A DNA stretch of 64,000 bases, taken from positions 104,501 through 168,500 of the forward strand of contig CM065879.1 of the NCBI GenBank assembly GCA_033439255.1, written 5' to 3'. The DNA is from Hericium rajendrae (lineage: Eukaryota; Basidiomycota; Agaricomycetes; Russulales; Hericiaceae). The position numbers were made by a program, and so were the translations under genes. Of this stretch, positions 23,957 through 48,972 are shown piece after piece. Each line of letters starts with the position of its first letter. Positions within the stretch are counted from its first letter, which is position 1. Below the pieces are notes generated by a model. That model was not told the origin of the DNA and ran no database searches. It worked only from the letters and a program-made list of their open reading frames with translations.

Positions 23957-23963
23957 CTAGATA
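23957..23963. repeat. Candidate target-site duplication of the KDZ element (left)
   Basis: CTAGATA directly abuts the left end of the element. The same seven bases abut the right end at 48203-48209. Confidence 0.55.
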
Positions 23964-24230
23964 GAGCCCATTCAGTACTAATTCCCATATGAGCATGCCG
24001 AGTCAGCTTGACACCGTCGCATCCTAGATGGTGGAGCTCACGTTGGCCAACATTCCAGTGTAGCCATAGTAGTATGCATAGAATAACAATATGGTTTCCC
24101 ATGTCCCCTTGCTCAGGAATACCTGCCCAGAGTCTCTATGCCTCGCATTAAGTTGCCATGGCACATTGCTTGGCCAAGTCTATGTCAATTCTGCAATGAT
24201 ATATGCCTGGGCCAAATGTACTATATTTCA
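23964..24230 (+). repeat. Left terminal inverted region of KDZ copy A
   Basis: Reverse-complement match to about 47960-48202 with a handful of mismatches and one 2-base indel. It contains the TTGGCCAA-like word that recurs in the neighbouring array. Confidence 0.8.
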
Positions 24231-24245
24231 AGCGGTGTGCATGTT

Positions 24246-25124
24246 GCTATGGGTTGGCCTACTCATAATGCCATATACCGCGGCATGCCACTATGGATTG
24301 GCCAAGCCGTGCTGCCGAGACCACCTCCATGCCGATATGGATTGGCCAAGATGGAATTTTGCAACTGTTGCATACCGCTATGGGTTGGCCAATGTGTAAT
24401 TTTCCACCTGTTACATGTGGCTATGGGTTGGCCAAGATGGAATTCCGCACAGTGTTGCATGCCGGTATGGGTTGGCCAGCATGCAATTCCGCGTCCTGTT
24501 GCATACCGCTATGGGTTGGCCAATGTGTAATTTTCCACCTGTTACATGTGGCTATGGGTTGGCCAAGATGGAGTTCCGCACAGTGTTGCATGCCACTATG
24601 GGTTGGCCAAGTTGGAGTTCCACACAGTGTTACATGCCGGTATGGGTTGGCCAGCACGCAATTCCACGTCCTGTTGCATACCGCTATGGGTTGGCCAATG
24701 TGTAATTTTCCACCTGTTACATGTGGCTATGGGTTGGCCAAGATGGAATTCCGCACAGTGTTGCATGCCGGTATGGGTTGGCCAGCACGCAATTCCACGT
24801 CCTGTTGCATACCGCTATGGGTTGGCCAGCACGCAATTTTGCATCCTGTTGCATACCACTATGGGTTGGCCAATGTGTAATTTTCCACCTGTTACATGTG
24901 GCTATGGGTTGGCCAAGATGGAGTTCCGCACAGTGTTGCATGCCGGTATGGGTTGGCCAACACGCAATTCCGCATCCTGTTGCATACCGCTATGGGTTGG
25001 CCAATGTGTAATTTTCCACCTGTTACATGTGGCTATGGGTTGGCCAAGATGGAATTCCGCACAGTGTTGCATGCCGGTATGGGTTGGCCAACACGCAATT
25101 CCGCGTCCTGTTGCAATGTGTAGC
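24246..25124 (+). repeat. Subterminal tandem array, 43-44 bp monomers, copy A
   Basis: Roughly 20 monomers of 43-44 bp, each carrying TATGGGTTGGCCA followed by a variable half such as GTGTAATTTTCCACC or GATGGAATTCCGCACA. Monomer types alternate in a higher-order pattern of about 131 bp. Because the period is near a multiple of three only in groups, long stop-free frames run across it (for example 24546-25214). They repeat one pattern in all frames and are not genes. Confidence 0.9.
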
Positions 25125-25672
25125 ATATTGTTATGGGTTCTCCAAGTGGTGAGTCAATTATCACTTGCATACTGTTATGGCTTGTCCAAGATGTCATTTT
25201 GCACTGTTACATAGTGCTATGGGTTGGCCAGTGTGCAATGTCACATGCTACTATAGCTTTGCCTATCCCAGTTTATGTAAAAGCGACCATTTGACCATCG
25301 CATGTATCATATACAACTGCATACCCCGCAATAGATCCAACATACCAGATTGATACATGCGGCATTCCTCCGTGTATCCCGCGGCATTTCCCCATGTATC
25401 CCGCGGCATGCACGCATGTATGCCGCTGCATATCGGGGTATACCCGCTGAGGCCACAACTTATATACGGCATGATAACCGCTATATGTTGCCACATATCG
25501 CCGGGTATTCTGCTATATTCAATTGCTATCATCGCGAACGGATAGAACGGGGATTTAATATGCCACGACATACTAATAAGGGAACCACTCGGGGGTACTG
25601 TCACGTGACATTGGGCGCTGCAGGCACAAGGGTCTTTACAACTGCGATAACACATTCTCCCCACCCACCATC

Positions 25673-26274
25673 ATGTCTCAATCACCAAATGCGAATACAT
25701 GGGCTTGCCATACCCCTGACATCCACGCCATCCATACACGCGTGATATCATTGCTCTCCGAAATAGCATCCTCATCTGATAAACAGATGACAGGAGCACA
25801 ATGGGTATATCAATATGTGCTCGATACCCACAATGCTAACTATTCATAAGGTTCAGTTATCCCGTGATATCGGCTTATTGAAACTTTACAACATCGGAGG
25901 ACCGCTGGACTCCCGCATCCCTGCAATATTCTGCCAGTTGGTGCAGGATTATGCCACGGTGACAGCAGGGATCTTTGGAAATGTCCCTGCCCTTCTTACA
26001 CAGGTATGCTATATTACCAGTCCTGTTCGGCATAAGTAAAGACTAATTCAACAATGTTCAGAGTGGAATTTACGCCAAAGGACCACCCACACCACCAGCT
26101 GATATCCTTGCTGCCCGGGAGGAGATCCTCAGCAACTTTGATAATGCAGAATCCAAGCTCCAATCACTTGCCACAGCAGTAAAGGAGTTATTGGAGGAAT
26201 GGCGCATTAAGCGTGGCATTGCCAAGCGTAGAATGGAGGAGGTCACTGCTCTGAAGCAGGAGAATGAATATTAG
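25673..26274 (+). CDS. KDZ accessory gene 1, small coiled-coil protein
   Basis: Three exons, 25673-25804, 25851-26003 and 26062-26274, give 165 aa. The first intron is 46 nt and contains a textbook GCTAAC branch site. The N-terminal part has the segments ISLLSEIASSSDKQ and LSRDIGLLKLYN. The last exon is a charged helix rich in Glu, Lys and Leu (AREEILSNFDNAESKLQSLA onward) that should form a coiled coil. The gene is preserved intact in the second element at 62413-63014. A protein with a similar C-terminal coiled coil is encoded near the other end of the element (43820-44892). I do not recognise a family. Confidence 0.7.
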
Positions 26275-26482
26275 ACAGGCAATATTGTGTATACTGCTAT
26301 CGGTTTTGATATTATTCTACTCTGAGCATCAACCACAGTGTCAATCTGCCCCGCCAGAGGTAACGTGACTCATTCCGCGGAATACACGTGTTTTCAATGC
26401 GGCATGGGCGTCAATAGATACCAATCATCCCCCAATCTCCTTTACATCGCCTCTACACATTTCAAGTCACTGAATCTCTGAA

Positions 26483-27391
26483 ATGAACACCCAGCGTGCT
26501 GCTCCAGGCAATGATTCTATGCCGCCCACTGGCTCACTCGCACAGGCCATTGTTAACGAAGTTACATGGCGTATTCACGATGCACTGAAGACCATTTCAA
26601 AGCCGCCGGGAACCTACGAGTACTGGTATGCATTCACCGCCATCCAGAAGGAACTGGTATGTTGTGGAGAATACATATGTTTATTACATTAACATGGGTA
26701 CATAGGATGTTGCTGCGATAATGCTTGGTTTTGCAGAGTTAGCCAAGATGCCGCCGTTGGTCATTCCGACGTTCCTACGAAATACCAATGCCATGCTGGC
26801 CTCCATCGGTGATGCCATAGCTGCGCACCGGAAACCAGACCCACTAGAACGCATACCATTCCCACGGGATGCCACGATGATGCACTACATGCCTCGATGG
26901 TGGCTACCCCGTGCGCAGTGGTGGCCGAAACCCATCTGGGACACGCTGCGCTCAATTTCATCCGGGGCTGTGGGTCATGCAGATGGATCTGCCAAGGATC
27001 GAAGGTACTGCAGTCCATATATCATTAATTACCCAGAGCTGAAAACGTTCAGAGGTAATGCCGGTGTGTGGTCCACTGCCGCGACACGTACGCCACATCC
27101 GCCAGACATCGTGGGATGTCTAGCCCTTTCCCTCAGTGCCCACGTGGACAAGGTACACAGTTATGATCTCTTTGGTTCCAACAATTACTCATGCCGCAGT
27201 AGATCCAGCGAATGGACAAGGTGTACAGTGCACTAAACGATGCTGTGGCCAGGTCTGAGAACATGACCAACTACCTGCAGGAATTCTGCGATGAGCGTGA
27301 GTACATACAAGGCAATTTGAGAGGGATGAAGAAGTGGATGAAGGATCCCGAGGGATGGTGGACCCTCTTCCAGGATTATCTGCGGGACTGA
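26483..27391 (+). CDS. KDZ accessory gene 2, unknown
   Basis: Three exons, 26483-26656, 26706-27152 and 27203-27391, give 269 aa. The middle exon has ELAKMPPLVIPTF, a Trp-rich MPRWWLPRAQWWPKP patch and a His/Pro-rich loop. The last exon is a charged helix (RMDKVYSALNDAVARSEN) ending in a Trp-rich WMKDPEGWWTLFQDYL tail. No catalytic motif is visible. It follows accessory gene 1 by about 200 bp in the same direction and is converging with the transposase gene. The second element carries the same gene from 63223, open as far as the window allows. Intact frames in both copies argue that it is or was functional. Confidence 0.68.
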
Positions 27392-27511
27392 GGTCATCTT
27401 GCATGCGTCTGAAAGGCCATTGAATACTTCTGGTATGCCGCGGCATGTCCTCTATCGTCTCCCCAGTCTTGAGTCATCCCAAGTATATATATGCCGAGGC
27501 CTACATGTACA

Positions 27512-30500
27512 TTAGTCTAACCCATATGTTGAACGTGGATCATCTCCTACAACCTCCTTGAAGCTGTGCTCGGCATGCCTAGCAAACTCCTGCCACATCG
27601 CCCTCTGTCTCGCACCATATGCTGCATGTCCCCGTAAGTTCTCCCCCTTCGCATACTCCACCCTCATGCCCCAGTCATCAGCACGCTTCTCAAACCCGGT
27701 GACAGTCCATTCCATCTCGAATGGGAGAACCACCATCTCCTCGTGCCATCGGTGCATCCTGGCGCGTGCATGAAGCCACTGGACTCTGTGAACTGTATGG
27801 ATCAAGAAGGTGTTATTCTGCCATGCATAAATCTCAATTGGCATGGACTTTATACGTACAGTCAGCAAGCCATTCACCCTGGTTGGAATCCCCATCAATG
27901 TCCATTGTCCAGAACCAGGGCAGAGTTGAATTGCGTAGACCAGCGATCGATGGATCTAAGACTGCAGTGCGAACCTTGAGATGATCTGGCAGGAGGTGTT
28001 TGAACTTTTGGAGAACAGTGTCATCTGCGCCCAGGGCTTGCATTGCTTCACGACATTTTGAATACACACGTGCTTGGTGCTGAACAGTACTCTCGATGGA
28101 TGTCACACCATCCCATGCCCACGTCTTCTTGCGTTGACTATTCGCATGCCGCACATCATGCCTGAAGACATAGGCCTTATATCTGAGGGCAAGTCGTAAG
28201 CTTTCCAAAGCGTCATTTGCCTGGCCTTGTCGCAGTTCTCGCTCGGTATCAACCAGCGTTTTCATCTGAGGTAAGCGTAGAATGCCTTGCTCGAGGCGGG
28301 AAGGAATGCTGATGGCCACGCGTTCGATCGGGATGTACCCTCCAGGTCGGCGAGGTGCGTGAGCAGGGGTATCATCTTCCTCGTCTTCCTCGCCAACCCT
28401 ATCAAATCTCTCACCATCGTCCGGGGCCAGAGGGACTCCGTGGCCTGTGGTATCAATGTCATATGGCAGGTAATGTGATGCCGCACGTTCAAAGGTTGTC
28501 ACCCGGGATTGCAGGCACCACCTCTTATCTTCAAGATCATTTCGTTGAGGTGCAGTAGGGCTGGAACCCAGCTTCTGTACAAGGGTCAATACCGACAGCC
28601 TTTGCCGCCAGATGTCAGTATGTATAATAGGATGTGCATATGGTTTCAATGTACTGAGTCTCTTGTATGCGGAGGCCCAGCATGATCCATGCCGCGGCAC
28701 CATGTCCCCTCCCACGATCAAGTTCCAGTTGATTGAGCTTCACTAGAACATCCGCTCTTGATGGTCCTATCATATTCCATCTGGCATCAATATGGGGTTA
28801 CTCTGAATATTGATTTGTCTGCCTGCCTTTCTTCACGGTAGTGTCATATATCTTGACCATCACCATTGGATCCTTCTCTCGCTTTCTTTGCACCTTCTGC
28901 TCTTGCCATGACCAGCGGCCTCGATTAGCATTCGATACTGTATAATCAATACTTTCAAATGCATCCTCAGCTGCTCCCAATTCCACCTTTCCATTCCGAT
29001 AGCGACGGGACAGATAGGCCACTTTAAACTCAGTCAGCAAATTACATTCATATGAAGAGATGTAGACGAACCCATTCCAATGAGCTTCTTCCAATTGGAA
29101 TCATTCATGTGATCGTCAAGTACCTCCCTACGATGGGATGTTGACATGCCACTAGTGCTCCTGGAAATTTCGTTCAATGGAGCCCACAGTGTCTCAACTG
29201 TTTCACCATCGAACTGCCGTGCACCAATGATATAGTTTGGTGAGAATGCTGGAACGGAATCAATAGGAATTCACTGCTGGCCACCCGTTGCTCGAATAGC
29301 TTCCTCCACTGGCAGACAATATCATAAACGTTCATGAAGATTTCGATACCCTTGCTGTTGTGATTCATGGCCTGGCAAGCCGAGTAATCCATGTTCATTT
29401 GCCTGTATATGCTCGTCACCATTGCCCTAAAATCATTCCAACCCTAATCGGCATACCGTTCTCCCTTCTGGAAGTTGACTGTAGAGTGTGGGTAAAAGCA
29501 CCCATGGCAACATGCCGTCGCTCCAATTCCGGTGTGCTCAACGTGATGCCTATCCGTGTTGACACGATTGACAGCCCGGTGCTCATTACATGTTGATCTC
29601 TAAATGCCGCGGGATACGTCAACACCGCGCAGGCATGCGATCGCAAGTTGGCGTACCTCGCGTAGGTCATTCGAGGATTTCAAATGCTTCTTATACTCAT
29701 CCTGTCCTACCATGAATCCAGCACCGTCACTGAGCTGCACGTCATTCGCCGGTCTCCGCATCTTTGACCCAGTGGACTCAAAATTCCCATCCATGATGAA
29801 CGTTCGCAGGAAGATCCATCTGAACCACTCTCAGTCACCGCCCAAGAATTGCAGATAAAATGCTGTACGCACCGTCGAGGATCACATGTCTTCCAGTCCT
29901 CTGGTAGATTGAACTCCGGCTGTGCACATGTAGGGCAGAACATCGCGCGGCATCCCGGTGTTTCCATCTCACTTGGATCGTGCCCCATACCAAACCATCT
30001 ACGCAGTTTCATATCCCGCCACTGCCGCTCAACGTGCAACAGTTCTCGGTATCGGTCCTATATTGCAATCAACAGGATACTTTTCAAAATCATGGAATAA
30101 CCATACGGGTACGGTTGATGGAAATGCGCTACTTGTGAGGCATCACAACTTGTGATAGAAATGGTAAGCAGTTGTTTTGCATTCCAAGTTGTCCAGACGG
30201 AAGTCGTCCAAGACTCGGAATGTAAATGCAGTCTCTGGGGTATGAAACGTGGAGGGGAACATCTGCATACGGAATAATTGTAAGGCTGGGGGGTCGGCAT
30301 TAGGACAGTGGCACCAGACGACCGGAATGCAGTGGACACCGGTCGCATCAACAATGCACATAATTGGGTTCCCATCAGAGTCCCCCGCCTTTTTGGGAAG
30401 CGTGTCTGTCTGGAAGGTTAACAGGTCCTCATCCACTTCAGGCCGGCTGAATGCCTCATCCCCATCATAGACTTCCAGATCGTCCTGTACATCCTCCTCC

Positions 30501-31224
30501 TGGGGATCTGGGCCAAATTGGTGGTGTTCTGAACTGGTGTGGGGACAGGGCTCTCCAGAATGCCCAGTGTGGATCTTGACACCCGCGAGGCGAAGCCATG
30601 ATGGTGCAAAGAATTCACCTGTCCAGCGTTCGACACGATGAAACGGCAGGGTTGCATGACGTTTGGCTAAGCACTGAGGACACTCGAACACCTGTCCGAG
30701 ACAGTCTAGACATCGCCAGCTACCTGGGGTTGCCTTGCAAGTGGCGCAGGACATGTTCTCCGGGGGGGAGTCTCCATCTAGCATTGCACGTATGTATTCC
30801 GCGCGTTTCGGGAGCCATTCCCACAGGTAATCGTGCTGTCCCTATGTCGCGGCATAAGCAATTTCTCCTGGGGCATGCAACGAAATGCTGGAAGTGCGTG
30901 CACCTTTCCATGAACGTCTGCCAATGGGTCTCGAATGCCGTCCTCATCCATAAAGTCGTTATTCATGACTTCATAATCCTCTGCCCATGGCCCAGGTAGA
31001 GCATTGAATATAGCTTCTCGAGATGGCCCGGATCCGTCCCTGTCTGGTGTAGACATTTCTAGAAATGTGGTGTCGATATCCAGGTGAGATCGGCGAGACT
31101 TTTTCAATGTGACTTGCTTGAATCCACGAGTTGTGTCCTGTACGACGAGGGTGACATGTGCACGGCCGCCCGTTGGTGCTGCGGAGTATCGTATCCCATT
31201 TTTGCGTTGTTTAGTGCATACCAT
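27512..31224 (-). pseudogene. KDZ transposase with CxC2 zinc cluster, disrupted
   Basis: Exons read on the minus strand: 31224-30904, 30841-30107, 30057-29873, 29819-29657, 29599-29457, then from 29402 onward to 27512. The CxC2-like cluster near residue 130-165 reads CATC...CLDC...CPQC-x4-H. The catalytic core has MDGNFE, GIGATAC, QMNMDYSACQAMN, YDIVCQW and ETLWAPLNEIS, with DHMNDSNWKK after it; these are hallmark KDZ (Kyakuja-Dileera-Zisupton) segments with the expected D, D and E. Three lesions are visible: TGA at 30143-30145 (codon about 340), a frameshifting internal deletion near 29255-29270 between the second D segment and ETLWAP, and TAA at 28798-28800. The transposase would move the element by DNA cut-and-paste. 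This copy should not make a full-length enzyme. Confidence 0.85.
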
Positions 31225-31359
31225 GAAGTCAACGGTGTTTGGCTGATAGCGTAGCAACGAGACCAGATACAGGGATGACGGAATGTCTCTGTAGGAAACT
31301 TGGTCATAGAGAAGAAACTGACTAATCTGTACAGATCTATCGTACATGCAGATCTGATC

Positions 31360-32749
31360 TTATGATAGTGACAATCTGGTAAGAGCATGGAGTGATCGCT
31401 CCAGATCATTGTCGGAATGGCTATGAGCCGCGCCATCATTCTCTCGGTCATACGCACGGATCCTCATCCATCCTGGAGCCTCTTGTCCAACCCGATCATG
31501 CACTACATCCTGCATGAACCATGCATAACAAACCCGTTCACCAGAGAAGTCCGAGACAGCATGCTCAAGGGCTCTGCCAGATATTGCAACCACAGTTCGG
31601 GGTTTATAAGCAAATTCTAGTCCGGTGCCTGGCAGGCTAAATGTGGCGCCGTGATATGATCCGATAGTGCAGAGGACATCATACCATGAGGCATGACTCT
31701 GGGAATCCCGATGGGACGGCGTTAGCCTGTTCGATATGACCGCAACACCGTTGAATACCGAGGGCCACTGTCGGAGTGCTGGTGCAAGTCGCTCTATGCC
31801 CTTCAGCTCCTTCATGACGCATGCCACGGCAATGTATAGCTCTGGGTGAATGACGCGGAGAATGGTGCTGAACAACGCGGCAGTCTCCGCAATGTCCGTG
31901 GCCCATTGCATGCCATCCGCGTTACCCTTTGCTGGATTGATCAATGGGGAGATGAATAAGTCGTCGTCTGGACCCTATGCACAGCAATGCTTGAGAATCG
32001 CAAAACAATATGAATGTCCATCAGTGAAACGCACATTTTTAGCCTGTTGAAACCATGCAGGAGACATTGACACGGTTCCAGGTGTAAATTCTTTGCATAT
32101 GTCCTCGGCATGAAAGAGAGTGGAGGATTCCCTCCAGGTTCCGCGTTTGCTGCTGCTCGACTTCTTCTGGGAAGGATTGGACTTGCAGACATAGGAATTC
32201 AGGTGCTGTGTTGCCGCCCGCATCTTGTCCTTTCATTATATAAGTATGAGGTATTGAACAGAGCACACTCGACATACCTCGCGCTCCTTTGATATGAGTC
32301 CTGGCAAGTACCAGACGAATTTTCTCCCATGCTTGTCAACCCCAATACATGGCTTCATATACCTGGGATGCCCGCAAGCTGGCGGATAGCGCTGCCGAAA
32401 TGTTGGAGAGTCCTGTTCTCTTTTACGTTCGGCATAGCGCTCCAGGTCCCAGTCAAGGGTGACTGTTCATTGTTAGGATGTTAATGAGCTAATTAAATGG
32501 ATATAAACACATACTACGACGATTAAATGCAGTTACAAGCATATCCGTGCAGAAGTCCAGCTCGGACAGCATAGTGATAGGGATGATTGTTGCTGGACGC
32601 GGAATGTCAGGAGGAATGGTTCGCTCTGCAACAGCGCAGTGGTGCTGATCGAGCACATTGAGAAACCGGTTGTAGAGATATTCCGCCATTGCAGGGGCGT
32701 AAGGACAATGAGACCCGGGGTCATTATCGGGAGTAGGAGCTGAAGACAT
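31360..32749 (-). CDS. TET/JBP-type 2OG-Fe(II) dioxygenase (5mC oxidase family)
   Basis: Four exons, 32749-32515, 32462-32278, 32229-32035 and 31974-31360, close to 409 aa with no internal stop. The third intron (60 nt, GTGCGT...CATAG) removes what would otherwise be an in-frame TAG. The double-stranded beta-helix core lies in exon 4. The HxD iron ligands are in TPSHRDSQ (H about 293, D about 295). FSLPGTGLEF and TVVAISG follow. The distal His is in ALEHAV (about 343) and the 2-oxoglutarate Arg in GERVCYAW (about 352), ending with VVHDRVG. This series matches basidiomycete TET/JBP proteins, which oxidise 5-methylcytosine in DNA and are often carried by KDZ transposons. It is the reverse-strand neighbour, about 140 bp upstream, of the transposase gene. 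Start at the only in-frame M of exon 1. Substrate is inferred from family. Confidence 0.82.
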
Positions 32750-33803
32750 TATGGCTATGCAAAATCAGCGTTTCTGGATGTATCGTTTTTAAATACTAAC
32801 CTAGACAATGGAACGGCATTGTCCACCATCGTATTGGAGCATGCATTGTCTATCTATGGTATTGTTCTATTGTTACTCATACCTGCTCCTTTGTTCATTT
32901 CCAGTGACAATGACAAGTTGCCTTTGTATTATTGTTGCAGACGACAATGCTCATTTAGTTGAGGTGAATATGTCCGATCAGTCATGTACAAGACATGTAC
33001 GTTCCAGGTTTCGTGCCGCACTATTATGCATATGCCGAGCTTGTGACATTGTTCTGTTGTTAACTCATACCTGCTTCCTCGTTTGTTTTCAGTTACAACT
33101 GCCATTTTATTCTTGTTACAGACAGTGCTCATTATAGTTGGGGAAAACACCTCTCCTCCCTCATATACAATGCACGCCTGACCGCAAGACAATAACGTTC
33201 CACGTCTCTAGTGCTACACTATTGTGCATATGGCACATTGATCCTTTGTTCACGCCAGATTCTTGAGGGACTCCGGCCCGACTTTCATAGCCTTATTAGG
33301 TATCTTGAACAGTAATCTGATGATCGGATCATTTGATGCCAAGCCGATCATCGGGTGGAGCGACGCGCGGAGTGATGGCAGAACAGACTTCTCCCACTCT
33401 GTCGGTCCACTAAAGTAGAGTGTTACTGACATGGACGGTTTACGGACCCTAAGCTATGTACCCTATATCTGCATCATACAGGTATTGGTCTGGAACTGAC
33501 TGGAATACAATACTGCCATAAGTCAACAGGCAGGGTGGTCTGGCAGTTTGGTATGATCTGTTGGGGAAAATGGTGAGCGATGTACCGCATGGATGCGCGA
33601 TCACCTTCGGCAAACGTGGAGTCCTGGGAGAGGATAAGGACAATTTCGAGTCCAGCCATGGTGTCATGGCATTCTAGAAGATTTCAACTCTAGCCATGGC
33701 GTGATGGGAGAGCGCAGAATTTGATTGTAGTCATGGTGTGATGGGAGGGCACAGAATGTTCAGCCTGCATTTTGTTTTACCAAGTCTGACCTCCCCTCTT
33801 GTT
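32750..33803. other. Divergent intergenic region between TET/JBP gene and accessory gene 3
   Basis: About 1 kb, AT-richer than its neighbours, with the word TTGTTACTCATACCTGCTCC recurring in diverged form near 33058. That gives a roughly 190 bp imperfect direct repeat (about 32800-32990 and 32990-33180). A tandem GCCATGG-type repeat lies near 33650-33740. It probably contains two promoters. No gene is recognised. Confidence 0.4.
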
Positions 33804-36800
33804 ATGGCCCGAGCAAAGAAACCCAAGGAACCGCGCAAGCATATATCCACACCACCAGACACTGCGGCAGCGACCACCAGCGCCGTTATCGAGCTCCAGC
33901 TCACCCTCCAGTCACGCCATCTGCAGTATCTTGAACCGCGGTTGCCAGATTATCGTGCTGCAGATTCTAGCCAGCGGGCAAAAATTGCGCGGGACTGTGT
34001 GGATACGCTTCAAAGTGAATTCAAGGACGAGTTCGATCCCTGGAAGAAATGGAAGCGGCTGGTCAAGCAGGTAAGGTCCAGGATTGCTTTGATGTCCCCA
34101 TTCTTACCTTGTCGGACAGCGCATCAAAATTTGGTTCCGGAATAATGGTCGGAAAAAGCCTAGCAAGGCGATAAGGAAGTATGTCAAGAAGGCAGATTGG
34201 CGGAATGTGTGGGCCCGCGTCGAGAAAGATGCCTTTCACGCGTACTTCGAGGAGCTCAACGGGGTCAAGGTGGGGTCGGTGAAGTAGGTCGGAAAGAGAC
34301 AGAGCACGCTGTCCAAGTGGTGCAAGAATATCAATGCCACGGAGAAGGCGAAGTATGTGGAGATGGTGAAGGCATGGAACTCTGGAGACATCCCAGTCGA
34401 CGTGCAATGAAAGTATGTGCCATGTCTGTCTATGTCGCGTTACTGTCACTCATTATGATCAGGAATGCATCGAAGTATGCGGCTAAGTTCATCAGTGCAT
34501 TTGCGAAGGAGATGTACTCGCAATGTGATATGCAGATGTTCATTCTTACGAAGTTCATCGACGTGAATGGTCATGTTGTCAATGCGGTGTACGTCATTCA
34601 CTGGTTTATTCTAGTCAGCTCCTCACCCACTTCCAGACAGGACTACACGCAGGAACTGTCAGGCGCACGGGGCTTCACAGAGACGCATCCAGATTGGGAT
34701 GATACGATGATCATGGAGAAATGGACTGAGTGGTCCCCGGGGGAATTTGGTACGTACTGCCGTATGCGTAGCAACTATCGACACTAAGCACATATCACTA
34801 GACCCAGACTCCGTGAATGCTCCATATTCTGGAAAGGCTGTCCTCAATATCCCGGAGATCGATTATGATGAAGAGGGATGGCCGATACTGCCCTCGATGG
34901 ATGTCTTCGAGGAGCTGGAGAGAAAGGAACGCAAGGCAGTGATCAAGCACTGGATGACTGTGCATTTCCGTGAGTGATCATTTCGTTTTGGCTACGAAAG
35001 GCTGACATGTCTTTCAGATATTGCCATTGGCCAGACAAAGGGTAGTGTACCATGGGGATTGGTGTTTTCTGAGGACAGCAAGTACTACTCGCGTGATTGC
35101 TTCCTGAACGACTACAAAGGATGGATTCACCCCTCCAAGTGGAACCGGCACTGGGTTCACGATGTATACATGCATTGGCATGTCCGCATTGACCTCGGCC
35201 TCATTCCGTTCAAGTGGGATGCTTATCCAGAAGTTGTGGAGGATCGCATCATCCGTCGTCCAGCCAATCCTCCTACCGGCATGCGGGGGCTCACAAAGAG
35301 ACGTAGTTTGGCTTCCCGTCCATCTGCAGCATCATCGGCATTGCCCTCCATCAATCCCATTCCCACCGCCAATCCTGCCTCCACGTCCAGGAAGAAGACC
35401 AAAGGCCAGAAAGGCTCTGGCAAAAATCCCAAAGGCAAGCAGAAGGCTGCAAATGATACCGAGGATGAGGCGCGGTCTTCGTCGTCGGACAGTGATACGC
35501 ATGACGATACGACCTCCAGCAGCGAGTCCTCATCTGATAGCGATTTGCCCGCTGCTGCCGATGATGATGATGATGAGGAGGAGGAGGAGGAGGAGGAGGA
35601 GGAGGTCATAGTGAAGGATACTCGTGAACATGGTGCACAGGAGACAGAGGCTGACGAGGCCCAGGATGCACAGTCTGCAGAAGAGGTCGACCGTGCACCC
35701 ACCGTACCCGCGGCATTGCCAAAGCCAAAGGCTGACTTGCGCAAGGCTGGTGCGGCTAAACCAAGAATGTCCACGCCACCGCAGGCCATCTCGAGCGAAG
35801 ATGAGGACGAGGTTTCGACAATGATGCAAGCCATGGGCCAGTCGCACAAGGCAAAAGCGACCCGCCTAACATGCCCTGCTGATACCCGCGAGAAGGTTGC
35901 ATTGCGCATGCAGTATCTCGCGACTCTCTCATGTGAGGTGGACTATTGCGAACTGCTCGAGCGGATCGTGGGAATGCCTGCGGTATGTCTCATGATTCCG
36001 TGGTCTGCGACCGAGTGTATACTCACTTTATTTAGGTTCCTGGTCCCGCCGCGGTATTGCTCCTTCCCGAGAGCTGGAGGGAGCCATGGGCTGCCTGGCG
36101 CAGCCAGCAGATATGGCTTCCTGCTGAGGTACATACTCTTCACGGTTTAGAGGACCTTGAGGGATGGCTCGACAGCGAACCATGGCTGTTGAGTGGCAAG
36201 GACCGGAATGCTGGGAGAATCATCTCTAGGCGTGGAATGGAAGTATTTGCTTTGGTCATGGGTAGTGCTATGCATGATATGCATGAGGGACAGTTCGCAC
36301 CGGATGAGGAGGAGGAGAGTGCTGGGCCATTATACCTTGCTGGATCGCCATTCGCGTTCACCTACATTGAGAGCATGATGATTCCTGCGATTCAGGAGGC
36401 AGTCATGGCACTTGCAAATGGGGCACCAGGGTCTCAATCCGTACGTCCATCTACCCATCCTGAGTAGCAGATTTGTAATGAACTGAACCGGTCTTACAGG
36501 TGCCCAAATCCCCGCTTCATGCCATGCTCACATCCTCCACATCAGTTCAGTCCTCTGCACCCACAGCGAAGGTATCAGGGAAGCACGCGGCATCTGCGAA
36601 TGGTGGTAAGGAGGCTGGGCCAAGCTTGATGAAGCCGGCGAAGACAGCTACCAAGCCGCCTCCAAAGAAGCGGAAGCCAGAAGTGCAGGACGAGAACATT
36701 GTGAAGGGTCGCAGGCAGAAGAAGCCAACATTCAAGGCTCTCGAGTATGTCGGAATGCATATCTCAGTTTGCCACCCATGCTAATGTACTGTGCAGACAG

Positions 36801-36887
36801 CCCCCACCATCTCGCCGTGCCAATAAGCCTTCGGAAACCGCTGCGGCATCTTCAGCGGCCAAGGGCAGATCCCGAAATATGGTATAG
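33804..36887 (+). pseudogene. KDZ accessory gene 3, WFRNNGRK-type protein, two nonsense codons
   Basis: The first exon is 33804-34070; exon 2 starts at 34120 and exon 3 at 34463. Later exons run to the TAG at 36885-36887. Exon 2 opens with RIKIWFRNNGRKKPSK, reminiscent of the WFNNHGR motif proteins common in mushroom genomes and of homeodomain helix 3. Further on come SKWNRHWVHDVYMHW, a long Ser/Asp/Glu linker with an 11-residue Glu run (about 35578-35605), and a C-terminal Trp-rich LPESWREPWAAW region ending in basic KPPPKKRKPE, a likely nuclear signal. Exon 2 contains TAG (about 34286-34288) and TGA (about 34408-34410), each where Trp (TGG) fits the frame, followed by perfectly open downstream exons. 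Function is unknown; a DNA-binding role is only suggested by the motif. Confidence 0.62.
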
Positions 36888-37624
36888 AGAGCCCCGAGCC
36901 TCCACCAGCCTGCAGCGGGATTCAACTCCAATGCCGCAGCATTGTACAACAAATGTGCCATGTTCGCGAGCTTCAACATGCCCAGCGACGTTCATTTCGG
37001 CCCTCCCCGTACCACTGCGAAGTGTGTAATATTCAGTTTCATTTGAATGCACTTTGGCTAGATTCAACATCTATCCCGCGGCATTGTACTATACTCGCAC
37101 CGCCTCAGGTCCTCAACGGCCAGCGTAAGGACATAGAATTGACTGTTCGGTTTGGTTCCCCATCACCCAGTATATGCGTGGCATTGTAGGTATTTATCGG
37201 GCAAATGTGCAAGCTGTTCACATCATGCCGCGGCATTGTACGGAGTCGCTGCCAGTTAGGAAATATTTCCTGCATCCCCTTTGCCAACGCCCTATAATGT
37301 AGGCGTATTGTACTTATATTCTCAATCGCTTCAACATGCGATAGGCCTAGCTGATCATTATGTGTCTGTCTGTCGTGTTCTCCTGTCTATCTTCAACATG
37401 GTAGCCATACATTCATCATGTAATTCGTACTATTGTGTCTTGTGAATACAATGTTTTCATTGTGTCCACAACTGAGAATCGTGCAAGTTGCACAAGATCA
37501 TGCATCTTTGTGAACAAGAGTGACAACGTTCCTTGCATTTAGCACACTCTATCTTTCGTACAAAAAATACCGCGCTATTTATACAGGTATCAAAACAGCG
37601 TATACGACATCTACAGTAACCTGC
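36888..37624. other. Intergenic inside KDZ element with palindromic SacII-type words
   Basis: Converging 3' ends of two accessory genes. It contains several CCGCGGCATTGTA words (about 37078 and 37228) of the element-wide ATGCCGCGGCAT palindrome class and no supported gene. Confidence 0.5.
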
Positions 37625-39795
37625 CTAAGATGCACCACCGCCTCCTCCAGGCCCTGAAGATCCTCCAGCACTGCCGCTACCTCTCCCGGCCCCTGCGCCC
37701 CACTGCACAGTCGGCGTCCGCGGTCCAAATAACCCCGCGGATATCGGGATGGATGGTGGAGGTGGTGGGGAAGCCCTTACCGTATCGCGAAGCTCATCCA
37801 CGCGGGTGGACATCATGGCGGACATTGCGGTAATGTCCTTGTGCAGACTCGTGGAGAGGCTGTCCAAGCCCGTGTCCAGGCGCTGAAGGCGGTCATCATG
37901 CGAGTTGAGGCGCTCGTCCGCAGACCCCTTATGATTTTGCACAATGGTGGCCAGCTCATCGACGGAGGCGGCAACCTGATTGACGTGGGTGGACACCGTT
38001 TTGACCGTCCCGGGAAGTTGCAGAAGATCTTGAAGGATCCCGTCATGCGTACGCAACTGCAGTCGCAGGCGCGCAATGTCCGTGGCAAGGTCTTCCACAC
38101 AGGGGCCCATGGATGCCGATGCCTCTGGTGTGGTGCTGCGGGGTGGATCGTTTATGGTAGCAATCGGAGGATGGGGGGACAGTACGCGCTGGCGGGAATA
38201 CGTTGCCGCCTGGCTGGGACCTCCAGGTGATTCCACGCCAGCTGAGGAGACAGGCCCGGCATGGGACTGGCCAGCGGGTGCACGGTCCTCCATGCCGGTG
38301 TTCGCGTCGATCTGCGGGCCATCTTCATCTTCTTCAGACTCGATGTCATGCTGCTGGTCGTCCTGATCCATCTCCTGTGGCTGGTAGTCCCCGCGGATAT
38401 CTGGCAGCTCATCACCCTCGTCCACCTCTGGTGGCTGCGCATCCTCCATCGCCACATCGTCATGCTGTTCATCTTCCTGGACATAGCGCCAGAAGTTGGC
38501 CTCCCCCCGCAAGTCCGGGAAGCGGGATGATGTCCGATCCTTGGGCCAGTCAGGTATCGGCTCCATAGAATGCCGCCAGAGGACATCGAGATAGTCCTCT
38601 GGATCCCAGTTGGCCCTATTGCCGGTTGGAGCACCCCACACGCGATGTTAGCACTTCTGCCGGCTGGTATGGCATCCCTTACAGGCGTTGCATGGCCCGT
38701 TGGGGTAACATGTCTTCTCTTGGGCAACGCAGAAGGTACAAGGATCAATCTGCGATTTCCCAAAGACAGTTCAGTAAGCGTGAAAGGCAATGAACCCTGG
38801 AATGGAGCCATAGCTACTAAATTTATAACGATACTACTATTATAATAGCCCAAACCATGTAACGACAATAACTATTATGCACTAATGGCTCCTATTAGCC
38901 TTATGGCTTTATCTAATAGGAATCATTAATGATATTATATATGCAAAATAAAATATATTTCGTAGGGTGCTTCTTTAAGCTATTTTTAGCACTTTCGTAA
39001 TCAGATCGGGATCCCGATCGCAGTTCTATGCAATCGGGCGCCTAAATTGTGTACAGTGAGCTTATCTAATCTAATCTCCCTCCCCACTGCCGCGCGCCTA
39101 CTCGATCGGCCTCGTTCGGCGCCGTGCCCGCCCCGCCTCCCGCCCCGCCGACGTCGGCGCTACCCGCTCGCTCGCTCGTCCCGCCCTCGGCTCTGCGCCC
39201 ACACCTACCGCCACAGCTCAGTCCCCCCCTGCTGTTAGCTCCCAGCCACCGCCCGCCGCTCACTCTGCGGAACCGTTGCCGCGACGTACGTCATCAGCGC
39301 TGCAGGCGCTGCTGCCGTCGTTGTTGCTGCGTGGTCGGCATGGCGCTACCCAGCGCGGGCGGTCGCCGGGACTCCTGCGCCATTGCTGTGCACCGCACGC
39401 CGTTGTTGGGGTATTCCGCGTGGGCGCTGGGCATCGCACGCGAGTGCTGGCGTTCGGTGTGGGTGCTGGGGCCCGAGCACGAGTGGGTTGGGGGGGAGGG
39501 ATAGCGCGCCGTTGTTGCGCTGTGCCAGGGGGCTCCACGTCACGCTGGGACCCGTCACCAGTATTGAGCAACGGTCGCGGGTGTTGAGGGCCACGGACGC
39601 GCGACGCGCGATGCGTATGGGCCCGCGGGCACGCGCGTCAAGTGTCGTCGTGTGCGTGGGTGCTGGCGCCGCGTACACGCAAGCCCGGGTGTTGACCGTG
39701 CGTCCATGTCGTTGTACGCACATGGGTATGCGTCTGGGGGCGCGTTCTGCGCGTCTGCACGTGTCGGACGTGGGCGGACGGCTGGGGTGGGCCGT

Positions 39796-39834
39796 GGAGG
39801 GCGTGGAAGGGCCGTGGAGGGCGTGGAAGGGCGG
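39796..39834. repeat. Short tandem duplication, GTGGAGGGCGTGGAAGGGC
   Basis: Two adjacent near-identical copies of about 20 bp inside the GC-rich block of the nested element. Confidence 0.6.
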
Positions 39835-41399
39835 CGCAGAGAGCGGACAATGCGGGCGAGGGCGGGAAAAGGGAGAGCGCGGAGAGAAGGACGTGTGAAG
39901 AGCGCAGAAGTGGGCATGTAGGAGGAGGACGGGCAGGAGGAGAGTGAGAGGCTGGAGAGCGAGTCGCGCACGAGCTGTGCTGCTCGAAAACGGCCGAGCG
40001 GCGGTGGCTGAAAGCCCGAGAAGCCCGATCGTCGAGGAGAGGAGTGCTCCCGAACGATTTCTGGACGGTATTGTCCCTGAATCTTGAGCCGGATGTGTAC
40101 TTAATATAGTCTTTATTGTATGTACAACATTTCGCGCAATATAGAGTATTGTTGGAGCCAGAATAAGTGATTTATGTTGACCCTACAGTAAGGGCCTACC
40201 TCGTATTTCCTGTAGTACAGAATTTACTACAGGAAGTTCTACTTATCTATCTGAGCGAAAAATATTATGATCCTGTAAGAAATGTAAATGCGAAGTATGA
40301 GATTTTTTGGACTTGATTCCAGAGCTTGAGATCTGAAATACACACGAAATAACAGTTCATGGAGCCGAAAACGCACGTATTTGGTTAGATCTCAAAGATC
40401 CAGGCCACTAAAAATTACCATAAAGTCGTAATACATACCTTACATATGCCCCAACGTATATAAGAGAACCGATGCATGATATGGACAAAATGTGCTGCAC
40501 AATTGCAGCTCGAATCTGGTGCCCGGCGTTCCCAACAGCTCAATTCGAGCTTGACGCGTTGACCATTAAGGACAAGCGCCGCACGTTTGGTACGTGCATA
40601 TCTGTATCTCGCCGATATCTCTCCTGCACTTCATTCGATTCATACAGTACTTAGTATTTAGTTTCATTAGCACTATCTACATGTCATACATTATTTGTAT
40701 ACTTTAATTGAATTTACTTGGGCCCGAATATCGACTTTGACGAACTCGGTGACATGTTCGGCAATTGCCGAACCGTGCCACAAGGCTCGTGGTTGAGGCT
40801 CATCGTGTCCTCCTCCGCCTCTCATCAAGCGGGTGGGCTTCGAGGCTCAACAGCCTCTCAGTTGTAAGTTAATTTCTTCTTCTATTTGTTTTCCTACTGT
40901 TACTGACTACAATCTACCTATTTTAGCTTCAGAACATGACGATGTGGCTCGCTGCGAGCTGCACGACGACATCACTGCCGTTGATCCCCCTGTCCTCGTG
41001 CTTCTAACTGCGCGCCTGACATCTCCCAGCCCCATGCACGAGGATGACCAGCTAGCAAGAGCTCGCGCTTGCAAGCGCGCCTACTTAGGAACTCCTGAAC
41101 GCGTGTGCAACGACTGCCGCGCCGGGCCACTCCCATTCACTGTCCCACCCCCACCACGCCACGTTCACGCTGACGTGTTCTCGTTCGTGTGTGCGTCGGT
41201 CCACCATCACACCCCATGGCGTAGCAACGACGTGTGGACGCCCTCAAAGCGCCCTCCCCCGCCGGCGCCCGATGTCATTCAGCTCCGTCCGCGTGGATTC
41301 CAGCCTCGTCCGCGTGGGTCCCAGCCTCGTAGTCGCGCGTTCCCGCACCCATGCACTCCAGCAACCGTGCGCACTCAAGCCCCGTGTCCCGCGTGGTCC

Positions 41400-41640
41400 C
41401 GCCATTCTCCGCGCACCCCGCGCCATGCCCCGCACGCGCCGTGCCTCGTGCGGTGCCCCGCGCACCTCGCGCCTCGCGCCTCACGCCATGCCCCACGTAC
41501 CTCGCGTCTCACGCCATGCCCCGCGCACCTCGCACCTCACGCCGTGCCCCACGCACCTCGCGCCGCGTCCCACACGCTTTCGCCGTGCGCCGCGTCCTGC
41601 ACGCTTCCGCCGTGTGCCGTGTGCCGCGTGCCTCAGTGCC
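41400..41640. repeat. GC-rich degenerate tandem repeat region
   Basis: Diverged tandem units of roughly 30 bp built around CTCACGCCATGCCCCGCGCA and CACGCACCTCGCGCC. They create apparent Arg/Ala/Pro-rich frames on both strands. No coding function is inferred. Confidence 0.55.
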
Positions 41641-41849
41641 ACGTGCCATGCCCTGCACGCTGTTCCAGTGTCCTGCTCGTGCATCGAATGCGTGGCCAGC
41701 GCGATGGAGGGCGCTCGCGCCAGCAGCGAACCGGCAACCCTGCACTGACCAGACCGCAGCGCACGCGCACTGCAGCGGGGGTGCGGCAAATAGCGCGCGC
41801 AGCGAGCATGCAGCGCGTGCGTAGCCGCGGGGCGGAAGCGGGAACGGCA

Positions 41850-41998
41850 GATGGAAGCGCCGGCAAGCGCGAGGGGAAGCGCCGGCGAGCGCGAGGGGAA
41901 GCGCCGGCGAGCGCGAGGGGAAGCGCCGGCGAGCGCGAGGGGAAGCGCCGGCGAGCGCGAGGGGAAGCGCCGGCGAGCGCGAGGGGAAGCGCCGGCCA
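41850..41998. repeat. 22 bp minisatellite
   Basis: Six to seven copies of a 22 bp unit, AAGCGCCGGCGAGCGCGAGG plus GG, nearly perfect. Because 22 is not a multiple of three, every frame repeats in the predicted translation. It lies just inside the right part of the nested element. Confidence 0.9.
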
Positions 41999-42015
41999 GC
42001 ACGCATCAACGACAT

Positions 42016-42040
42016 GGCCGAGATCCTTACGATCTCGGCC
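42016..42040. repeat. Perfect 10 bp stem hairpin followed by a T run
   Basis: GGCCGAGATC, a 5-base loop, then GATCTCGGCC, followed within four bases by TTTTTTTT. It could be a structured end of an RNA from the nested element. Pol III would stop at the T run, but no A/B box has been identified, so this is structure only. Confidence 0.6.
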
Positions 42041-43819
42041 GATGTTTTTTTTAATGAATGTCATATGTATGTTTTGCGGCACCTCCCGGTGCTGCCTTGA
42101 GATAAGATTAGATATGATGCATGATGCTGCTTAGTAAGGGTCTGATCCCAAGTCCGAGATACCCGGGTGCTATACGAAGCAATTAATATATAAGAATAAT
42201 GGTATTAAATCATGGGAATAAGTCTCCCCGAGGCCAAAGGCATTGGCCGTGAGAGCCAATACCTTTATATAGCTAACAAAGTAGCTTTATTAGCTTTGGC
42301 CTTTTAGTACTCTTAACAACAATAGTTGTTGTCGTTACATGGCTTTGCTTAATGTAATAGGGTTTCGTAGTATAAAGTAAGTAGATACAGTTGTGGAATG
42401 AACTCACTGGGATATTCATCGCCGCCTTGATAAACCGCTCCTCATCGTCTGTGTACTTCCTTCCAGCATGCTATGCCATGAGAAAATGGGTGAGTGCTAT
42501 GCAAATGGACAGGGGTAATCTGCAGGCATACCTTCTTTGCTGGAGGCTGGCCTCTGTCCTCCCGAGTGTCAACCTGCTCGACCTCTTGAGCTGCGGCTTG
42601 CCGTGCACTTTGCCTAGGGGAGGCGGCATTCGTCTGACCCGCCCGTTGCTTTTGGGGCTTCGCGGTGCGTTTGGTGGTCTTGGGGGCCGCCTTTAGCGTG
42701 CTGGCAGCTGGCATTGTGGGTGCAGGGGCTGCGGCGGCCTTACCCTTCCCTTTCAAGGTTTTGGAGGTGGTCTTGGTCGTGTTTGGGGGTGCTGCCAGCT
42801 GCTCATCCATGGCGTCGGCGCGGCACTTGCTCCGACGAGGCTCAGGCACTGTTGGGGCAGTTGGCGGGACCTTCGGATTGGCTGGCACCAGCTTCGACTG
42901 CTCCACGTGTGCGCGGTTGCAGTCGATCTGGGCCTGTACCTCCGCGGAGTCATCAGCACTCCGCTGAATGGGAACCCCTCCTTTCGTGACAGGAAGAAGG
43001 ATCGTGGGCTGCGGGCGGGGACGGGCGTGTGCATCCGTAGCCGAATGCGAAGGTGTCGGCATTGCAGCAGATTGTGCGAACTTCGGCAGGGCATTTGGGC
43101 GAGAGGTAGGGCATCCGGTATTGGATGTGGAGGCCACAGTGGCCCCAGGCTGTGCATCGCGTCCTGGAACAATGTTAATCAGGCTATACATTCAGAACTA
43201 AGCCCATACGCACCTTGGATAGACCACCATTCCTCCTGTGGCTGACTCCCATCTTGCAAGACCCTATACTCCTTAATGTCTGCTGGCCACACATCCAAAT
43301 GAAAGCGTTTGAGGTGATCGGGTGTCACGCGAGGGTCGTCCGGCTTGATGGATTGAAAGTTGACCGGGCGTACCTCACGGTGGGCTTGCACCATCTCCAC
43401 AAACCAGCTGATAAGAATGGGCGGGAGAATGTTACGTTCTCCTGCCTTCTTAGCTGCATTGAACGCAGCGGCAAGTGCAGTCTAAAGGTAATACTTAAGC
43501 AATAGCATATGAAGAGAGAACTCAGTCATGCACCTGTTCAGCAAAAAGGTGCTGCTCCCATTCCTGCTGGTTGACGGTCCCGCGGAGATTGAGTTCCTGG
43601 AGGGCCAGGAATATGCGGGCTGCATGATGAATGACACGTTCTTCAGCAGGGGTGTAGGAGGAGGACATGACGGTAGGTGCAAAGTGAGAGCAGGACACCT
43701 TGCTGACTTCGCCGTTGACGCGGCGAACTCACCATGGTCACGTGACTGATGCGCCGCGTGCGAAAGTCTGGTAAATTGGTGCCAAGGCAACCCTACGACC
43801 TCCTTCTACCTTCATCATC

Positions 43820-44892
43820 ATGGATGCCGACGATCTGGAGTCCTTCATGGCTACATTGGACCAGGACTCGCCGGCGGATACGCACATGGACGTCGACAAC
43901 GAGCAAGCTGGTTCTCCTCTACACTCTGCAGGGGAGAACGCTGCAAGGTTGGAGACACGGCGCGGAGTTCAGGTAAGTGAGAAGTTGAACGTTGTAGATG
44001 TTCTGGCTTATAGACAGTGGAAGCATGATACTGAGCTTGAGGCCATGGAGCAGGAGCTCTGTGGCACCGTGACCTCCGCAGAACCAGAAACGGGGTCTGC
44101 GGTACGGCAGGCTGACAAGGTAGGTGCACGCCGTACTGCTTTCACATCCATTGCTTACACTTCACAGGCAGATTATTCGGAGATTGAGGCAATGGAGGAT
44201 GCATTCTTCGCATTGTCGGATCCCCCCGCCATCCCAGAGGCCGATGAAGCATCGTTCTCTAGCATAGAACGCAGTAACGAGGTATGTTCCCTTGCTGCTA
44301 CAGTGTAATGATTTCTAATATACATTAATTTAAGGCTCGACCAACTCCGAGAACGGGGGATGGTGCTGCCGTCCTGCCAGAAGTGCCTGGAAGCCTGGAG
44401 GGATCCAAATTCGGACACCATACGGTGGATAGGTGTGTCACTACAAGTCCAGAGGGTAAAGGGAAGGCCCGAATGCCCCAAGATTACGATATTTTGATAT
44501 CCTCGGATTCTGTAGAGGCTGAGGTGCGTATTGTTTAATATGCGCATAAATGCTGCATGATCTGAAACATGCGCATGTCCATCAGCCACACGCTCCCACC
44601 CCTGGACCATCAGGCTCAGTAAGTATCGTTCGCGGATATTTACATATTTGTTTAGGTATTGATTGCACTATAGCCGCCACGACTGATCTTTCAACCCAAT
44701 CTGAGCACCGTCCGGCACCTCCATCCAGGCTCTCTGGGTATCATGGTATCCCAGCAGATCATGGCAGCAGAGGCTGCCAGATTTGACAGAGAAATGGATG
44801 TATTCAAGAGGTTACTTGAGGGTCATGAGGAAGTTTCCCGTGATCTAAAGAAAGCGCGGGATAGTTACAAAGATTGGATGGAGCGGTATTAG
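43820..44892 (+). CDS. KDZ accessory gene 5, acidic coiled-coil protein
   Basis: The start M at 43820 begins MDADDLESFMATLDQDSPAD. In-phase exons can be followed through LEAMEQELCG, a 48 nt intron (GTAGGT...TTCACAG), DYSEIEAMEDAFFALSD, RTGDGAAVLPEVPG with YDILISSDSVEAE, a short Pro-rich exon (PHAPTPGPSGS), and a final exon PPRLIFQPNLSTVRHLHPGS. The protein ends with a coiled coil ERY just before TAG at 44890-44892. No catalytic motif is seen. It starts about 150 bp from accessory gene 4 on the opposite strand, so the two share a divergent promoter that includes CACGTGAC near 43738. The C-terminal helix resembles that of accessory gene 1. Function is unknown. Confidence 0.62.
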
Positions 44893-46840: not shown

Positions 46841-47950
46841 ACATTGGCCAAGCATATGGATATGCCTCCGCACGGCATTCCGAAACCTTGGCCAAGCATA
46901 GGCATATGCCTCTGCACGGCATTCCGAAACCTTGGCCAAGCATGGGCATATGCCTCTGCGCGGCATTCCAAAACCTTGGCCAAGCATGGGCATATGCCTC
47001 TGCGCGGTGATACGCCTCAAGCTGTGTTCAGCAACGTCAGACCTCATCTCACCATCTCCCATGCAGTTCCCCTTCACTCCCATCCAGCTTCCAGCTCCTC
47101 ACCCACCAACCCCGCTCAGAGCGGTGATGTCCCTCATCTCAGGAGTTGTCAGCTACTGCAGGCCTCACCGAGGTTTCCTCAAGTTCGCTCCAGGTCGTCC
47201 TCAGCGGTTTTGGTGAGCCAATCAGGCTGCTGGCATTATGGTACTGGGTCTGTGTTGTACAGGATGCCTGGATGCCGCCTTTTGATGGTTTCGGACCATA
47301 GATGTACCATAGAGCAGCCGAGTCCGAGATCGCCCGAGACCGCCAAGGGCGAGTTTCTTACTTGTATGGTAGACAGAGTCCCAGCTTCGAATAGAACCCC
47401 CAGTGCACCTTTCCCCCTCAGAGCTCAGACCTCAGAAGTCTCTCTCACTGTTGTTCTCATCGTTCCCCGGACTTTAGACAAGTTCGCCCTCTTTAGGCCA
47501 GTCCGCCCGCAGCATCGTTCGTCAGATTCAGTCATATCAGCCGCTTTTCAGTCCTTTTCTCTAGGATTAGTCCGTCGTATCGGAGACCCGTGTGTCTCGT
47601 CGTTCTCCTTGTCATTCTACAGCCGTTCCTCATCCTTCCCAGCCGCTTATCACCAGATCGCCTCAGACTCGCCCTTAGCGAACCGGTCGCTCCATTGTTC
47701 CTGCTGCAGTGACCCTCAGCTGCCCTCACCTCACTCCTCACTTGAGATACTTGGTCCCCTCGCACCCCCCGGTACTCTGTTGGTTTTGGTTTTGGCTGCC
47801 GCCTCCATTCCCAGGGTCCACACATCAGCGGCATTCCGAAACCTTGGCCAAGCATAGGCATATGCCTCTGCACGGCATTCCAAAACCTTGGCCAAGCATG
47901 GGCATATGCCTCTGCACGGCATTCCGAAACCTTGGCCAAGCATGGCACTA
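46840..47950. repeat. Right subterminal array, 44 bp monomers, split by solo LTR
   Basis: The 44 bp unit CCTTGGCCAAGCATGGGCAT with ATGCCTCTGCACGGCATTCC is repeated about four times at 46840-47007 and about three times at 47828-47950. The unit shares TTGGCCAA and its length with the left array but not the rest of its sequence. The two parts were one array before the LTR inserted. Confidence 0.85.
47008..47827. mobile_element. Solo LTR (820 bp) with GCGG target duplication
   Basis: The sequence starts TGAT and ends ATCA, the classic TG...CA inverted ends of an LTR. GCGG lies directly on both sides (47004-47007 and 47828-47831). Removing the insert with one GCGG restores the 44 bp array unit exactly. 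It has no internal coding domain, as expected for a solo LTR left by recombination. The parent family (Gypsy or Copia) cannot be told. Confidence 0.75.
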
Positions 47951-47959
47951 TCAATACAT

Positions 47960-48202: not shown

Positions 48203-48209
48203 CTAGATA
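48203..48209. repeat. Candidate target-site duplication of the KDZ element (right)
   Basis: CTAGATA, matching 23957-23963. Confidence 0.55.
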
Positions 48210-48900: not shown

Positions 48901-48972
48901 CAACAGACGCGTCACGTCCGTTTGTTCTGCTTCAGCGTCACCTCAAGTTCGACTCGATAGCACCAGCATAAT

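Follow-up and report, generated by a model that had tools for sequence, protein, structure and literature searches.

TET/JBP enzymes oxidise 5-methylcytosine (5mC), and TET genes were reportedly described in KDZ elements by Iyer in 2014. The presence of such genes on transposons is usually explained as a means of escape from host methylation.

TET genes have been reported in Kyakuja, Zisupton and other elements and have been sorted into three types; according to the same source, the function of transposon TETs has not been experimentally validated (Kojima, 2025; PMC12730594). Similarly, transposon TETs are listed elsewhere as yet to be functionally characterised (PMC13297926). In Coprinopsis cinerea, 46 Kyakuja-associated TET genes and oxidised cytosines around them are mentioned (PMC12730594, Discussion), and an enrichment of oxidised cytosines at transposable elements (TEs) and TET genes, together with weak TET expression, has been reported in Laccaria and Coprinopsis (PMC8889193).

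The window analysed here is a 64,000-nucleotide stretch of Hericium rajendrae contig CM065879.1, and it holds a KDZ element, el1, with a TET/JBP gene (Table 1). As described for AG-type TETs in Kyakuja (Kojima, 2025; PMC12730594), the TET gene lies beside a KDZ transposase, the target-site duplications are 7 bp long, and the enzyme has the Asp and Gly/Ser pattern. The Kyakuja families of Laccaria are described in that source with 5'-CA..TG-3' ends and no terminal inverted repeats (TIRs), whereas el1 ends in GAGCCC...CATGTG and has TIRs of ~240 bp; el1 is therefore filed as a KDZ element and not as Kyakuja. Zisupton elements belong, like el1, to the KDZ class with TIRs, and some of them carry TET, but their reported duplications are 8 bp long (PMC12730594) against 7 bp in el1, which sets el1 apart from them. 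TIR motifs have been reported on KDZ and Plavaka elements in Marasmius oreades (PMC8290104), so that the presence of TIRs on a KDZ element is not in itself new. The Hericium genome resembles the TET set described for C. cinerea in having many KDZ-linked TET copies and a methylation-type signal on the elements; oxidised bases have been mapped in C. cinerea, whereas here a mutation scar alone is seen.

TET genes in KDZ elements are thus known, and the window element is an unusually complete member of the class. The new observations are a transposase that is dead in this copy, a CpG-scarred sister pair, an equal scar in TET-carrying and TET-less copies, and neutral-looking changes since the sisters split. 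No CpG-transition test of TET-carrying against TET-less elements was announced among the papers searched, which were judged mostly by their listings.

The element and its sister

The giant KDZ transposon proposed in the sequence-only reading of this DNA is borne out as an element of 24,239 bp with TIRs and a perfect 7-bp target-site duplication (7/7). A sister element, el2, is located 36 kb from el1 at 59955-80613 (window numbering), so that most of it extends past the end of the window; its target-site duplication matches at 6 of 7 positions (GTCGCAA/GTCGCAG). Segmental duplication was rejected as the origin of the pair, because each element has a target-site duplication of its own; the separate target site of el2 implies two insertions. 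The stretch 33048-36035, which holds a third gene in el1, is absent from el2. In the C1 copy, this third gene has a weak HMG-box-like stretch that scores 14.3 bits against a cut-off of 22.4.

Three fungal-type protein kinase paralogues (Pkinase_fungal) lie to the left of el1, at 14123-15508, 16948-18117 and 21572-23071, and the region of the third has a further copy beyond el2. To the right of el1, at a distance of 0.75 kb, lies the frame 48961-49866, whose similarity to the replication regulator SLD3 is marginal (25.5 bits against a cut-off of 24.9). An 84-bp direct repeat, 85% identical, is found between the two elements at 50648-50731 and 53312-53395.

Table 1. Features of the window, numbered from its first nucleotide
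Feature	Position	Strand	Basis
Whole KDZ element el1, 24,239 bp, ends GAGCCC...CATGTG	23964..48202	.	Both ends of el1, el2 and other copies aligned
Left target-site duplication, CTAGATA	23957..23963	.	Flanking sequence
Right target-site duplication, CTAGATA	48203..48209	.	Flanking sequence
Left terminal inverted repeat	23964..24201	.	Arm 23985-24201 99% complementary to 47964-48180
Right terminal inverted repeat	47964..48202	.	Pairs with left repeat
Minisatellite array inside left end, periods 131/175/306	24328..25115	.	
Broken KDZ transposase gene with CxC2 and KDZ domains	27512..31224	-	Profile matches; exon borders partly modelled
67-bp frameshifting deletion junction, KDZ core	29255..29256	-	Stretch present in el2, C1, C11 and C9a
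Premature TGA in transposase	30143..30145	-	Sense codon in el2
TET/JBP gene, 409 codons, four exons	32749-31360	-	Frame from sequence
TET/JBP exon 1	32515..32749	-	GT-AG splicing; conserved exon lengths
TET/JBP exon 2	32278..32462	-	GT-AG splicing; conserved exon lengths
TET/JBP exon 3	32035..32229	-	GT-AG splicing; conserved exon lengths
TET/JBP exon 4, catalytic domain and stop	31360..31974	-	GT-AG splicing; conserved exon lengths
Third gene, approximate limits	33804..36150	+	Part conserved in C1 subfamily; in-frame stop here; absent from el2
Start of sister element el2, continuing past window to 80613 (window numbering)	59955..64000	.	End alignment

The TET/JBP gene and its predicted product

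An intact TET/JBP frame of 409 codons had been claimed for the window, and the predicted exons agree with it: joined across GT-AG introns, they give a stop-free frame of that length. In the C1 subfamily, at ~75% DNA identity, the exon lengths (235/185/195/615) and the splice sites are identical in copies C1, C11 and C9a, which supports the four-exon model. Splicing that would destroy the frame was considered and none was seen, the predicted exon lengths and splice sites being kept across subfamilies. The gene is intact in five of the eight copies compared (window, el2, C1, C11 and C9a) and damaged in the other three: C9b has lost one base in exon 3, and the C18 and C4 genes are split by ~2.7 and 3.1 kb of extra DNA, respectively. 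Named proteins at 30-40% identity come from Auriscalpium, Jaapia and Lactarius.

The sequence-only reading had suggested a profile search and a structure prediction as checks, a best match to another 2-oxoglutarate dioxygenase family being the result that would speak against a TET/JBP enzyme. The Pfam search gave Tet_JBP at 70.9 bits (cut-off 34.9) and no other Pfam family up to E=1. The catalytic ligands picked out earlier are all kept, namely HRD at residues 293-295, the distal His of LEHAV at 343 and the Arg of GERVCYAW at 352; in the alignment to CcTet of Coprinopsis cinerea, they comprise the metal triad (H293, D295, H343) and the 2-oxoglutarate Arg (R352). CcTet (PDB 7vpn, 7w5p, 8jkk) is the closest solved relative both by sequence and by fold, with ~26-30% identity in fold alignments. 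Among its functional residues, 12 of the 13 that can be aligned are kept; Gly331 of CcTet is Ser in the window protein, and Thr90, Arg92 and Arg96 have no confident alignment to it. The structure model was poor when built from 6 sequences (mean pLDDT 43.7) and reached 71.1 with 53, and the modelled structure has the TET fold. Another 2-oxoglutarate dioxygenase family was ruled out, CcTet scoring far above other folds in the comparison.

The AG-type pattern of Kojima is present as well, with the Asp at CcTet position 337 corresponding to D304 and the Gly/Ser at position 331 to S298. CcTet is reported to be active also on 6-methyladenine (6mA) (PMC11040006), and both 5mC and 6mA activities are expected by Kojima (2025; PMC12730594) for AG-type enzymes. 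The window gene is predicted to encode a CcTet-like enzyme that would act on 5mC, and perhaps on 6mA.

The KDZ transposase

The TET gene had been placed beside a KDZ transposase, and its position stands: the transposase ATG is found 135 bp downstream of the TET stop on the same strand (the gap is 164 bp in C1). What had gone unnoticed is that the transposase is broken in this copy. The CxC2 domain of the el1 protein still scores 88.8 bits, and the KDZ domain (PF18758) scores 61.9 bits over profile positions 4-154 of 217 (cut-off 26.6), against 137.2 bits over positions 4-217 in el2. Judging from the premature stop and the 67-bp frameshifting deletion, the transposase of el1 is dead, and el1 would therefore be movable only with help. 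This tight arrangement on a single strand, with TET first and the transposase second, suggests that the two are co-expressed.

TET genes and KDZ elements in the genome

The claimed association of TET/JBP genes with KDZ elements holds genome-wide. There are 46 Tet_JBP matches, and at least 36 of them are followed by a KDZ match less than 7 kb downstream on their own strand, where ~0.6 of 46 would be expected by chance. This count uses the KDZ rows among the matches listed, without some second rows of the same gene; for the remaining 10, no KDZ among the matches listed lies within 9 kb.

The left TIR has 32 matches in the genome, which pair by eye into nine large and five short elements and leave four single ends, the C18 pair being the least certain. 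Eight of the large pairs span 20.7-26.5 kb and one spans 61 kb, the latter perhaps with nested insertions. All nine hold one Tet_JBP match and at least one KDZ match. The five short pairs (5.2-6.3 kb; L046-L050) have neither Tet_JBP nor KDZ among the matches listed. Each has a perfect 7-bp target-site duplication (7/7), their CpG observed/expected ratios (o/e) are 0.41-0.47, and L047, by its listed frames, is filled with repeats. These short elements look like non-autonomous relatives. Both orientations of the two kinds of end, GAGCCC and CACATG, are seen relative to the window (L046, L049, L050, C9b and C18), which suggests an exchange of ends or an inversion of the interior.

CpG transitions in TET-carrying and TET-less elements

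Of the 15,873 sites compared between the sisters el1 and el2, 386 differ, and 263 of these differences are CpG transitions, a 23.5-fold per-site excess over other transitions. Such transitions are found along the compared length, the TET gene included. The comparison covers the blocks 24438-29255, 29256-33047, 36495-38804, 42394-47004 and 47828-48202, with gap-adjacent sites skipped; it includes ~0.7 kb of minisatellite, and neither the 463-bp block 36036-36498 nor the element's left 474 bp forms part of it. A neighbouring kinase repeat, immediately outside el1 and 1.2 kb away from el2, shows a 2.0-fold CpG excess at 4.4% divergence, and the two excesses differ strongly (Fisher p 5e-16). The CpG o/e falls from 1.10 and 1.13 outside the ends of el1 to 0.66 and 0.69 inside. 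For el2 the values are 0.77 and 1.07 outside and 0.55 and 0.72 inside, the left border being less clean because its flank is also low (0.77).

Counted per site on both strands, C/T differences amount to 75/347 at ACG, 67/414 at GCG, 69/429 at CCG and 40/343 at TCG. The order ACG > GCG, CCG > TCG is not that of TCG-type hypermutation, which Kojima cites for rusts, and this candidate was rejected. General CpG hypermutability is disfavoured by the kinase repeat and, less cleanly, by a pair of TET genes unlinked to KDZ (L001 and L002; 2.2-fold at 14.6% divergence), as enrichment falls with divergence. The genome has five C5-methyltransferase matches; one catalytic exon reaches 43.8 bits, and a BAH-like exon at a second locus is below the cut-off. 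Long-standing CpG methylation of the elements would be the simplest reading of the scar, which sums over long times and carries no readable timing.

Similar scars were found in other TET-carrying elements. The 32 pairs compared consist of el1-el2, 15 pairs of the C1 subfamily, 15 of a 293-codon family and one of a 194-codon family. CpG enrichment was 7.9- to 45.8-fold in all 15 C1 pairs and 28.6- to 119.5-fold in 14 of the 15 young pairs of the 293-codon family, the other one having no non-CpG transition; the 194-codon pair gave 9.4-fold at 8.2% divergence. Among seven TET-less KDZ pairs, five gave values of 7.1, 14.1, 34.7, 35.6 and 115.7, one had no non-CpG transition, and one was identical. 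Left out were a retrotransposon pair with CpG already sparse (8.5-fold at 5.8% divergence) and four pairs of short repeat-filled elements that are apparently saturated (4.1- to 5.4-fold at 10-11%); two other retrotransposon pairs gave no alignment. Pooling the pairs that share no copy (6 of the 32 TET-carrying and 5 of the 7 TET-less, one of these five without any difference), CpG versus other transitions numbered 503/220 and 88/38, respectively (odds ratio 0.99, p = 1.0).

Because TET proteins are able to act in trans, TET-less copies may be treated alike, and the comparison tests only a cis effect. With few pairs and families that differ, the pooled result speaks against no more than a strong effect in cis.

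These values bear on the usual view, in which an element escapes silencing because its TET enzyme clears it of 5mC. Kojima (2025; PMC12730594) favours escape on the ground of conserved frames, and some young TET-carrying pairs (C1, C9a, C9b, C11) have few CpG transitions (5-13 per ~14 kb), as recent copies should. Against this view stand the el1-el2 scar, the still higher enrichments in the 293-codon family and the equal values of TET-less pairs. The sequence-only reading had likewise proposed that the element could escape host CpG methylation; the strong form of this proposal finds no support, the scar being 23.5-fold in the element and 2.0-fold outside, and pooled TET-carrying KDZ copies being scarred as TET-less ones are. 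As the comparison shows, an intact TET gene has not kept the element free of CpG-methylation-type mutations. A standing methylation shield is not supported, and we regard it as unlikely; a transient or trans-acting demethylation is possible.

Selection on the TET gene and the transposase

For the TET gene, window versus C1, dN/dS is 0.165 across the whole frame and 0.109 when restricted to the Tet_JBP domain. Comparable values were obtained for the KDZ core (0.108; el2 versus C1, 140 codons) and for the exon after it (0.114; window versus C1, 260 codons); since dS exceeds 1, all of these are approximate. Between el1 and el2, 18 of the 30 changes in the TET frame are nonsynonymous, where random placement gives 20.0 (s.d. 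2.4; P = 0.26). In simulations that place the el1-el2 changes at random, the frame is stop-free in 30% of trials, so that an intact frame today is weak evidence of current use. These values show strong long-term purifying selection on TET across transposition cycles, and no sign of it since the el1-el2 split.

The long-term constraint matters for two other readings. One holds that oxidised cytosines laid by TET are a repressive, self-limiting mark, which helps to silence TEs, including the TET elements themselves, and so spares the host while the elements persist. Oxidised cytosines at TEs and TET genes in Laccaria are indeed reported to be linked with low expression, and autoregulation is proposed there (PMC8889193). 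Such a mark does not easily explain why every large element retains a selected TET gene, and we consider it improbable. The other takes the TET gene to be a decaying passenger, open but unused, as the changes since the el1-el2 split, the simulated survival of the frame and the damage in 3 of 8 copies would allow. The domain dN/dS between subfamilies, as low as that of the KDZ core, and the TET match in all nine large TIR pairs make this very improbable for the elements as a group; it may still hold for the window copy today.

Possible role of the TET enzyme

We prefer, with about even confidence, the reading that a CcTet-like TET likely oxidises 5mC only briefly, around mobilisation of the KDZ element. 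Brief oxidation is favoured because element DNA bears the CpG excess expected from standing methylation. A fresh or reactivated copy would make transposase and TET together, and TET would oxidise methyl-CpG long enough for transcription or transposition. The host would then re-methylate the new copy, which would decay by 5mC deamination, so that selection would see TET only across transposition cycles. The window copy would be at the decaying stage, at most supplying TET, or itself moving, in trans. Both co-expression with the transposase 135 bp downstream and the timing of oxidation are points that we infer. A search of the genome for a UDG-superfamily glycosylase, with genes searched exon by exon, gave no match. 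In Marasmius oreades, low CpG methylation is reported at source copies of active transposons (PMC9674265), which means that other mechanisms may protect active copies.

That 6mA rather than 5mC is the main substrate, as the 6mA activity of CcTet (PMC11040006) and the dual activity expected for the AG type (PMC12730594) might suggest, is hardly credible, given that D304 is kept, corresponding to the Asp that CcTet reportedly needs for 5mC and not for 6mA, and that the 6mA-favouring Gly331 of CcTet is Ser in the window protein.

The reading of brief oxidation can be extended, more tentatively, to transposon TETs in general. Rather than serving as shields, they would act only briefly, at about the time of transposition, or would serve the KDZ community as a whole in trans. 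The elements would live and die methylated, scarred like their TET-less relatives, with the TET domain constrained like the transposase core, and methylated, transposase-dead copies would persist as shared TET sources.

What makes the locus interesting is that an enzyme under strong long-term constraint is encoded by DNA with a full methylation-type scar. Any escape from host silencing through this enzyme is likely to be brief. The locus offers sister elements whose ends are known, TET and transposase genes in both intact and broken form, TET-less relatives that end in the same way, and unscarred neighbours; such material could separate a cis shield, a brief burst and a supply in trans.

Other TET-like genes

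Six weak Tet_JBP matches resemble one another, with scores of 27.5-30.2 bits (below the cut-off) and open frames of 125-129 codons. They are located at C2:33965, C2:3866436, C4:1122998, C9:549710, C4:348987 and C14:67218, with no KDZ within 7 kb among the matches listed, and are perhaps another TET lineage or remnants. The best Tet_JBP scores of the genome, 88.8 and 85.7 bits, belong to L001 (C1:1705501-1705935) and L002 (C12:2182408-2182842), the diverged and little-enriched pair mentioned above. Both have no KDZ nearby among the matches listed and keep an HxD motif, and they may by now be host TET genes.
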